DNA of 64,000 nucleotides from Chthonomonas calidirosea T49. Its GTDB lineage: Bacteria > Armatimonadota > Chthonomonadetes > Chthonomonadales > Chthonomonadaceae. This document shows, piece by piece, positions 1-57,786 of this stretch (positions within the stretch are counted from its first letter, which is position 1; each line of letters starts with the position of its first letter). The DNA lies in the NCBI RefSeq assembly GCF_000427095.1, contig NC_021487.1, forward strand, positions 2,191,325 to 2,255,324. The letters are read 5' to 3'. The notes beneath the pieces are model-generated. The model saw only the letters and a list, made by a program, of their open reading frames with translations, was not told the origin of the DNA and did not search any database. The translations under genes and the position numbers were made by a program.

Positions 1-1478
1 CTCAACACCAATGTAACGGCGCTTGGCGCCCTTTACAACCTGAACCAGGTTTCCGATGCCGTCGCTAGCAGCATCCAAAAGCTCTCTAGCGGTCTGCGCA
101 TCAACTCCGCTGCCGATGACCCCGCAGGGCTCATCATCTCCGAAAACCTGCGCGCGCAAATCACCGGCCTCAATCAGGCTATCGCCAATGGACAAGACGC
201 CACCAACCTCATCAAAACCGCCGACGGCGCCCTCTCCGAGGTCAGCAACCTCCTCAACAACATCCGACAACTCGCTGTGCATGCCGCCAACACCGGCGTC
301 AACGACATCACCGCCGTCGAAGCCGACCAAACCCAAATCAACTCCGCCGTCCAGTCCATCGAGCGTATCGCCGAACAGACCCAGTTTGGCGACAAGCACC
401 TCCTCGACGGAACCGCCGGGGTCTCTGCCTCCGTCACCAATACCGCGGTGCTCTCCGGCATCAATATCGGAGGGGTGTTTGACAACCTCTCTACTGTGGG
501 AGGACCTGTCACCATTCAAGTGACCCAGCAAGCAGCCCGTGCGGGTCTTCACCGGCAGCACCGTTCTTTGCCAACGGGAGCCCAACTCCACCAATCGGGG
601 CTGGGCCACCCGGGTGGGGAAGGGATGATACGGTGGTCATCAATGGTCAGACCTTCACTTTCAGCGCTTCGGAGACGGTTCAACAGGCCATCAATCAGAT
701 CAATGCCGCCTCCAACCTCACGGGGGTCAATGCCAACTTCAATACCGCTTCCAACAATATCGTGTTAACGCAGACCACCTATGGGCATAACTACTCGATT
801 AGTGAGCAGGACAGCCTAGGGGCTGCTGGAGTGTTTGGCACCTCTGCGGCGGTTCAAGGCACCGATGCGGTGGTAGCGGTGACAGCTCAGGTGTTGCAGA
901 ACAACGTGACCACGGCGGTGACAGTCAACTTCACGGGAGGGACGGCCAGCACCGACAGCGGTCTGTTGGTGAAGGACCTCTATGGCAACTCGATGTTGTT
1001 GACGGAGAATGGGAACGCATCGGCGACGACCCCGACAGCAGTGGCTCAGGTATCGGCCAACATGTTGCAGTTCCAGGTAGGGGGGAACGCGGGTCAGGTG
1101 GTGCAGGCGAGCTTAGGCAACATTCGTGTGGTGAACTTAGGCAACACGGTGGTAGCGGGCTATAACCTGTCCAACATTGATGTGACGACGAGTCAAGGGG
1201 CAGAGAACGCGATCCAGATAGTGGATGAGGCGATCTCTCAGGTCTCGCAGTTACGTGCGAACTTGGGGGCGTTGCAGTCTCAGACGTTACAGGCGACGGC
1301 GAACTATCTGGGGATAGGGGTTCAGAACCTATCGGCATCGGAGAGCCAGATACGCGACACGAATGTGGCTCAGGAGGTAGTGAACCTCACGAAGAACCAG
1401 ATCATCGAGCAGTCGGCGACGGCGATGTTGGCACAGGCGAATGCCGCACCTCAGCTTCTGCTGAAACTGCTTGGATAG
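1..1478 (+). pseudogene. fliC: flagellin, 5'-partial, reading frame broken in the middle
   Basis: Structural subunit of the flagellar filament. The window starts a few codons inside the gene: frame 1 gives the conserved flagellin N-terminal D0/D1 region (LNTNVTALGALYNLNQ, then SSGLRINSAADDPAGL). Frame 3 from about 543 to 1478 gives the variable domain and the conserved C-terminal D1/D0 helix (SQIRDTNVAQEVVNLTKNQI, ending in LLKLLG). The two halves do not join. Frame 1 makes sense to about 540, a short piece around 542-568 reads best in frame 2 (VFTGSTVL), and from about 570 frame 3 is coherent. This implies two small indels, or one net shift, between about 525 and 630. Either the gene is inactivated or the sequence has an error here. 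Flagellin identity is secure; pseudogene status is not. Confidence 0.8.
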
Positions 1479-57175: not shown

Positions 57176-57205
57176 AAAAGGGGCAGGAAAACTCCTGCCC
57201 CTTTT
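57176..57205. terminator. bidirectional terminator between nudix and flgM
   Basis: A perfect 13-bp stem (AAAAGGGGCAGGA at 57176-57188, TCCTGCCCCTTTT at 57193-57205) with AAAC loop. The A-run and T-run make it work in both directions, serving convergent genes. Confidence 0.93.
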
Positions 57206-57226: not shown

Positions 57227-57544
57227 TCACAGTGCCGTGTTGTCGGCAAGGGTGCGTCGGATCATGAGGTCTGCAACATCTTCTCCACTCACGTGGTACT
57301 GACCACTCTCTACAAGAGCCTTTAACTGCATCACACGGTCCATTCGAACATCAGGAACCTGCTCGATAGCCTGTTTGACCTTTTGGATATCCTGCGCCTT
57401 GGCGGATATCTCAACGGATACAGCCTCCGAACTAATCGAGGACGAATCACTGTTTTGAGAACGCGCGATGCGACTTTTGGCGCTCCCACCACGTATGGGT
57501 GTTGTGGCCAACAGACGATTCACTTCCTCAGTAGATATCTGCAT
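57227..57544 (-). CDS. flgM: FlgM, anti-sigma-28 factor
   Basis: 105 residues. FlgM binds the flagellar sigma factor (FliA/sigma-28) and holds late flagellar genes off until it is exported. Family features are the disordered Ser-rich N-terminal half (SDSSSISSEAVSVEISAKAQ) and the C-terminal sigma-binding helices (KVKQAIEQVPDVRMDRVMQL, ALVESGQYHVSGEDVADLMI). GGAGG lies just before ATG 57544. It is controlled by a c-di-GMP riboswitch and its own promoter in the 242-bp upstream gap, a direct link to the flagellin gene at the window start. Confidence 0.85.
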   Translation of the reverse strand: MQISTEEVNRLLATTPIRGGSAKSRIARSQNSDSSSISSEAVSVEISAKAQDIQKVKQAIEQVPDVRMDRVMQLKALVESGQYHVSGEDVADLMIRRTLADNTAL

Positions 57545-57593
57545 TGTTTTGCCTCCTCTCCTGACTATTAGGACGCGAACATCGCGCCAGACT

Positions 57594-57694
57594 GAGTCGA
57601 GGACGGCAACCTGGCAACCATGGGGGACAACCCCCTACAGGCCCATGGCTTTGCGCCCCCACATTTCTATGGGTTTGCCTTTTCTACGTCTCCC
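57594..57694 (-). ncRNA. cyclic-di-GMP-I riboswitch (GEMM-I) in the flgM leader
   Basis: Read on the minus strand, the aptamer shows the conserved order of GEMM-I. P1 is closed by GAGACG with CGTCCTC (one bulge), followed by AAGGCAAACC. The P2 stem CCCATA/TGTGGG is capped by the hallmark GAAA tetraloop, with GCGCAAAGCC between stems. The P3 arm GGGCCTGTA is topped by GGGGG/CCCCC and returns through GGTTGCCAGG, and the terminal TTGCCG closes the junction. Between aptamer and start codon is a hairpin (GGCGCGA/TCGCGTC, 57572-57588) without a T run, so control is probably at translation. TCCTC (57599-57603) in the 3' P1 strand can pair with GAGGA of the ribosome site, suggesting an ON switch (inference). 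Confidence 0.93.
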
Positions 57695-57749
57695 GATTCC
57701 TAATTATTGGAACTTTGCTGTAATATCTTTAGGGACATCGGCTAACAAC

Positions 57750-57779
57750 AGAATATTCTATGGGGGATAGCGATGTCAA
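57750..57779 (-). promoter_or_regulatory. sigma-70-type promoter of the riboswitch-flgM transcript
   Basis: Consensus TTGACA (57779-57774) and TATTCT (57755-57750) with an 18-bp spacer. Transcription would start near 57743, giving a leader of about 200 nt that contains the whole c-di-GMP aptamer. Confidence 0.7.
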
Positions 57780-57786
57780 GGGGCAC

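Follow-up and report, generated by a model that had tools for sequence, protein, structure and literature searches.

In enteric bacteria flgM is expressed from sigma-28 promoters, which places the anti-sigma-28 gene in a negative feedback loop; it carries no riboswitch, and the c-di-GMP input enters elsewhere. The usual routes from c-di-GMP to flagellar genes are protein receptors or the OFF riboswitch that Clostridioides difficile carries on a sigma-factor operon. The latter, Cd1 (Cdi-1-3), is a switch on the flgB operon, which includes sigD, and acts by transcription termination (PMC6366702). Vc2, the c-di-GMP-I riboswitch of Vibrio cholerae, is described as a translational OFF switch in which P1 takes part (PMC9262584 and references therein), and the pilM GEMM-I riboswitch of Geobacter metallireducens is a cGAMP-sensing ON switch on pilus genes, whose ligand prevents a terminator (PMC9262584).

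Here we analyze a c-di-GMP-I riboswitch ahead of flgM in Chthonomonas calidirosea, in a stretch of 64,000 nucleotides that we call the window and to which positions refer. The locus resembles each of these systems in part. With enteric flgM it shares predicted sigma-28 control of the anti-sigma-28 gene; with Cd1, the aptamer class in a flagellar regulatory leader and a net logic of c-di-GMP against motility; with Vc2, the aptamer and a predicted translational control involving P1; and with pilM, a homologous aptamer and, in three families of related leaders (f8, f19 and f34), a predicted ON response by blocking a terminator. However, Cd1 is an OFF switch on a structural operon and a sigma factor, whereas the flgM leader serves the anti-sigma factor alone and is predicted to be ON; and where Cd1 terminates transcription, the window's family is predicted to occlude the ribosome site. 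Vc2 is likewise described as an OFF switch, on a different gene, and the pilM switch differs in its ligand, which is cGAMP, in working at the level of transcription and in serving pilus genes. The flgM device would be the inverted counterpart of the C. difficile switch, and the physiological output would be the same.

Among the open-access papers searched, we found no report of a c-di-GMP riboswitch on flgM or of riboswitch work in Armatimonadota, a little-studied phylum in which the control of motility has hardly been explored. What appears to be new is the target, the predicted sign, the position behind a sigma-28 promoter, and a conservation throughout the phylum in which one platform can stand in for another. 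If the model is true, the signal passes straight to the anti-sigma factor through an RNA switch, within a feedback loop, in the phylum as a whole.

The aptamer, its gene and its expected ligand

A whole-window Rfam scan placed RF01051 (c-di-GMP-I) at 57602-57689 on the minus strand, scoring 77.4 bits where the gathering score is 35 (E = 1.8e-13, calculated for the window and 4227 families). The alignment is full length (1-87 of 87) with no non-standard pairs marked, and the structure includes P3 and a P2 with a GAAA loop. The 5' strand of P1, GAGACG (57687-57692, minus strand), was read from the sequence and used as a constraint in folding; its partner, CGU-C-CUC, lies at 57599-57605. The leader measures 168 nt, 57 nt of which separate the 3' end of the aptamer from flgM. 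An earlier note, made from the letters alone, had named the GEMM-I landmarks, and every one was found in the order it gave; the covariance-model search it proposed yielded the significant match above, and its end coordinate, 57786, is correct provided that the upstream promoter is included. The downstream open reading frame (57227-57544, minus strand; 105 aa) encodes the anti-sigma-28 factor FlgM, as that note had said: it matches PF04316 with 66.4 bits against a cut-off of 25 (E = 2.7e-18), across positions 2-54 of 55. The presence of a c-di-GMP-I riboswitch at flgM is thus confirmed. The aptamer is an ordinary member of its known class and the only c-di-GMP-I copy in the genome of 3,437,861 bases (~3.44 Mb).

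FlgM is also present once in the genome above cut-off; a second FlgM was considered and dismissed, as the remaining matches fall below. Just 3' of the flgM stop we read a symmetrical G+C-rich hairpin with AAAA/TTTT ends (57176-57205, minus strand), a possible bidirectional terminator. It is absent from the list of our terminator scan, perhaps because its T run pairs with its A run. The gene looks monocistronic. In the genome, two sigma factors of FliA type (sigma-28 family) pass the cut-off. We infer that FlgM inhibits FliA in C. calidirosea. These FliA/WhiG-type factors, set against one FlgM, lie at G000:C1:1155824-1156495 and 879491-880153, both on the minus strand (loci L092 and L093). The genome also encodes ten GGDEF domains and several flagellin-family genes; the start of the window (1-400) falls inside one flagellin_N-family gene (G000:C1:2191328-2191738).

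The ligand pocket of the class is marked by a G, an A and a C, which we take to be G20, A47 and C92 in Vc2 numbering. All three are present in the window, in AAAAG-GC, CGC-A-AAG and GCC, and these canonical letters are retained across the 55 leaders of relatives described below. G20 of Vc2 is described as a selectivity factor (PMC9262584), and the equivalent base is G in the window and in the relatives. The expected ligand is c-di-GMP.

Promoters of the flgM leader

We surveyed 251 Armatimonadota genomes and extracted 55 leaders, which come from 14 families; f1 is the window's own family, and f1-f3 are those of its order. A sigma-28 (FliA) type promoter sequence, CTAAAG-N15-TCCAATAAT, lies at 57703-57732 on the minus strand, with two mismatches, among 15 letters, to CTAAAG-N14-16-GCCGATAAT; it agrees with the sigma-28 pattern TAAA-N14-16-GCCGATAA. 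With up to three mismatches of 15, the motif was found in 46 of the 55 leaders and in 1 of 275 shuffles, and it stands just 5' of the aptamer, at a nearly fixed distance. It also precedes 21 of 26 riboswitch-less flgM genes, against only 1 of 19 c-di-GMP-I aptamers serving other genes, implying that the promoter belongs to flgM. The riboswitch therefore appears to be placed between the promoter of flgM and its start codon, and the site at 57703-57732 is probably the main flgM promoter. Because this promoter is conserved phylum-wide ahead of the aptamer, FlgM is probably made from the very promoter that it shuts down.

The earlier note had assigned the leader a promoter of its own, TTGACA-N18-TATTCT. 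That sequence is indeed present (57779-57750, minus strand), with 10 of 12 consensus letters, and may be a second, upstream sigma-70 promoter; the role of main promoter passes to the better-supported sigma-28 site, which lies between it and the aptamer.

Sites resembling the sigma-28 promoter precede one of the two FliA genes of the genome (L093, 1 mismatch) and a csrA gene. The latter site (L236, G000:C1:2123165-2123192, minus strand), about 108 nt before the csrA-like gene, fits a flagellar regulon that includes CsrA. A similar pattern (L246, G000:C1:3046097-3046124, plus strand) stands about 85 nt before the gene for a response-regulator GGDEF protein, through which the flagellar programme might feed back on c-di-GMP synthesis. 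Elsewhere in the phylum, a sigma-28 promoter (1 mismatch) accompanies one c-di-GMP-I aptamer that precedes a gene other than flgM (L020, G046:C5:8747-8836). Many flgM leaders of families f8, f19, f24, f34 and f43 also carry an A/T-rich block, A runs and then T runs, immediately 5' of the sigma-28 -35 element (for example in G107, G119, G124 and G081); this block is a candidate UP element or activator site.

Predicted expression platforms and the sign of the response

The strand UUGCC-G-UCCUC (57599-57609, minus strand) comprises the end of P3, the ligand-contact CC and the 3' strand of P1. Its alternative partner is the flgM Shine-Dalgarno (SD) region, GAGGAGGCAA (57549-57558, minus strand), a 10-mer that occurs exactly once in the window. 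The duplex between the two is predicted at -18.3 kcal/mol against a shuffle mean of -12.1 (p = 0.035), and it forms part of the leader's minimum free energy structure (-62.9 kcal/mol). The SD region is occluded in the fold predicted without ligand: its unpaired probability averages 0.01 at 37 C, rising to 0.05 at 55 C and to 0.13 at 68 C. When the aptamer and P1 were imposed as a constraint, GGAG became unpaired. Because the free fold hides the SD and the fold with aptamer and P1 opens it, an ON switch is predicted, and control through the flgM ribosome site in this sense is likely. The earlier note had proposed this sign from a pairing of the 3' strand of P1 with the ribosome site, and the computed folds agree with it.

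Comparison with relatives is consistent with this prediction. In f1 the native pairing averages -15.8 kcal/mol, against -11.2 for cross-family partners, about 5 kcal/mol weaker, and -10.0 for shuffled partners. When the shuffled-partner test of duplex energy was applied to all families, significance was found mainly in f1, because SD and anti-SD letters pair easily. In the 18 leaders of f1-f3, accessibility of the SD in the free leader was about 0.1 with the native aptamer and about 0.3 with aptamers swapped in from other families (Wilcoxon p = 5e-5); the downstream part by itself gave about 0.5. In two family members (G114 and G183) native sequestration did not go beyond controls. Paired cells make up 87% of the ribosome-site helix, compared with 43-64% when the helix is slid. 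Within the window's order, covariation in this helix gave no signal beyond column make-up; the helix is near-invariant, so covariation neither supports nor rejects the pairing. The aptamer fold is predicted to be less stable than the free fold by about 15 kcal/mol, which would be a large gap for a ligand to bridge unless folding is co-transcriptional. Folding during transcription would then need to play a part, unless the gap arises because tertiary contacts of the aptamer are missing from the nearest-neighbour model.

Families f8, f19 and f34 are predicted to read out the aptamer in another way. Here the 5' strand of the aptamer, AAAAGGCAAAC, finds its partner in a GUUUGCC further downstream, which in most leaders runs on into a U-rich tract. 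The pairing averages -21.7 kcal/mol, compared with -11.7 when the downstream sequence is shuffled, and its probability is 0.84-1.0 in 9 of 11 leaders. This platform looks like a long-range terminator that would form solely when the aptamer is unfolded; like ribosome-site occlusion, it predicts an ON sign. We found no clear platform in f6, f14, f40 and f44.

We consider it likely, and hold with good confidence, that the c-di-GMP-I riboswitch turns flgM translation ON at high c-di-GMP, inside the sigma-28/FlgM loop. The sigma-28 promoter would transcribe the leader and flgM, and FlgM would repress its own transcription. In the ligand-free nascent mRNA, UUGCC-G-UCCUC would pair with the flgM ribosome site, and little FlgM would be made. 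Binding of c-di-GMP would lock the same strand in P3, the ligand pocket and P1, and so open the ribosome site; FlgM would then accumulate and bind sigma-28 (FliA), and the late flagellar genes would be shut off. The aptamer, gene identity, promoter motif, phylum-wide conservation and alternative folds were established by computation; ligand binding in the leader, the sign and size of the response and the outcome for motility are what we infer from them. Overall, c-di-GMP, a signal to settle, probably stops swimming by switching the FlgM brake on.

Several features of the locus could be read differently. The leader scores 57.5 bits with RF03167, the c-di-GMP-I-GGC model, just short of its cut-off of 59, and some relatives exceed that cut-off. 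Nevertheless, we think it very improbable that the aptamer is this variant or that its ligand is a different cyclic dinucleotide (3',3'-cGAMP). The models are told apart by a letter that is G in RF03167 (ACGC-G-AAG) and A in RF01051 (ACGC-A-AAG), and the window and relatives have the canonical A, reading ACGCAAAG and not ACGCGAAG. This letter (CGCAAAG, A not G), together with the score below cut-off, led us to reject the GGC variant; the G at the Vc2 G20 equivalent and the better match in the genome, which is to RF01051, point the same way. It also seems unlikely that flgM is driven mainly from TTGACA-N18-TATTCT, independently of sigma-28. The agreement of that site with the consensus favours such a reading, as does the mild enrichment of comparable upstream sites among relatives (up to two mismatches; 11 of 55 leaders against 7 of 275 shuffles), but conservation reaches much further for the sigma-28 site, which keeps its near-fixed distance and is found at riboswitch-less flgM genes too. 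Both promoters may act.

The sign and the purpose of the switch deserve the same scrutiny. Class-I c-di-GMP switches are known with both signs, and the functional ones in C. difficile are all OFF (PMC6366702), so c-di-GMP could lower FlgM and thereby release sigma-28. We regard this as improbable: the ribosome site is buried in the fold predicted without ligand and is opened by aptamer formation, the unrelated platform of f8, f19 and f34 predicts ON as well, and for c-di-GMP to raise motility would go against what the signal usually does. Furthermore, the terminator scan found no terminator in the window's flgM leader, and no anti-anti element was seen there. A less remote alternative, which we hold possible though on the unlikely side, is that the riboswitch serves chiefly to buffer or cap FlgM inside the sigma-28 loop, as timing or noise control, rather than switching between motile and sessile states. 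The stacking of a sigma-28 promoter and a riboswitch on flgM argues for it, implying that the leader is transcribed mostly once sigma-28 is active; in its mechanism it is compatible with the ON switch proposed above, and sequence cannot separate the two.

Conservation in the Armatimonadota

The strongest evidence is conservation. The aptamer occurs in 143 of the 251 genomes and FlgM in 190 (Fisher p = 2.5e-8 for their co-occurrence in the whole phylum). In at least 67 genomes of the phylum, coordinates put the aptamer immediately 5' of flgM and in its orientation, which answers the comparison of flgM leaders in relatives that had been suggested as a check. In most of the 55 leaders, 23-124 nt separate the aptamer from the start codon. 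A named collection of relatives, all or nearly all Armatimonadota, has a c-di-GMP-I clan match just 5' of 19 of 20 flgM loci. For comparison with other phyla, the flgM region on a Thermomicrobium roseum plasmid gave no Rfam match. In many genomes the f14 aptamers score just 31-45 bits, and the ones checked by coordinates adjoin flgM.

In the window's order, 18 of the sampled genomes have both elements, one has the aptamer only, none has FlgM only and 12 have neither (Fisher p = 9e-8). In other words, all 18 genomes with flgM have the aptamer, and 12 of the 13 that are flgM-less also do without it. From this distribution, the aptamer and flgM are apparently gained or lost together.

We lean, with modest confidence, towards a phylum-wide rule in which c-di-GMP governs flagellar expression mainly by a single conserved RNA device, an ON riboswitch that follows a sigma-28 promoter and precedes the anti-sigma-28 gene, so that c-di-GMP would set the gain of the loop; evolution would have rebuilt the readout, as ribosome-site occlusion in some families and as a long-range terminator in others, with the sign kept. 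These leaders offer a natural series in which homologous riboswitches share their aptamer, target and predicted sign and differ in their expression platforms.

Other c-di-GMP-I aptamers of the phylum stand ahead of prepilin-like and HD-GYP-like genes (L011, L024 and L021). Copies reach ten in some genomes (G134), and one genome has three aptamers and no FlgM (G175). Finally, a contig filed as 'Methanoregulaceae archaeon' (L188) carries an Armatimonadota-type flgM; the record is probably mislabelled.
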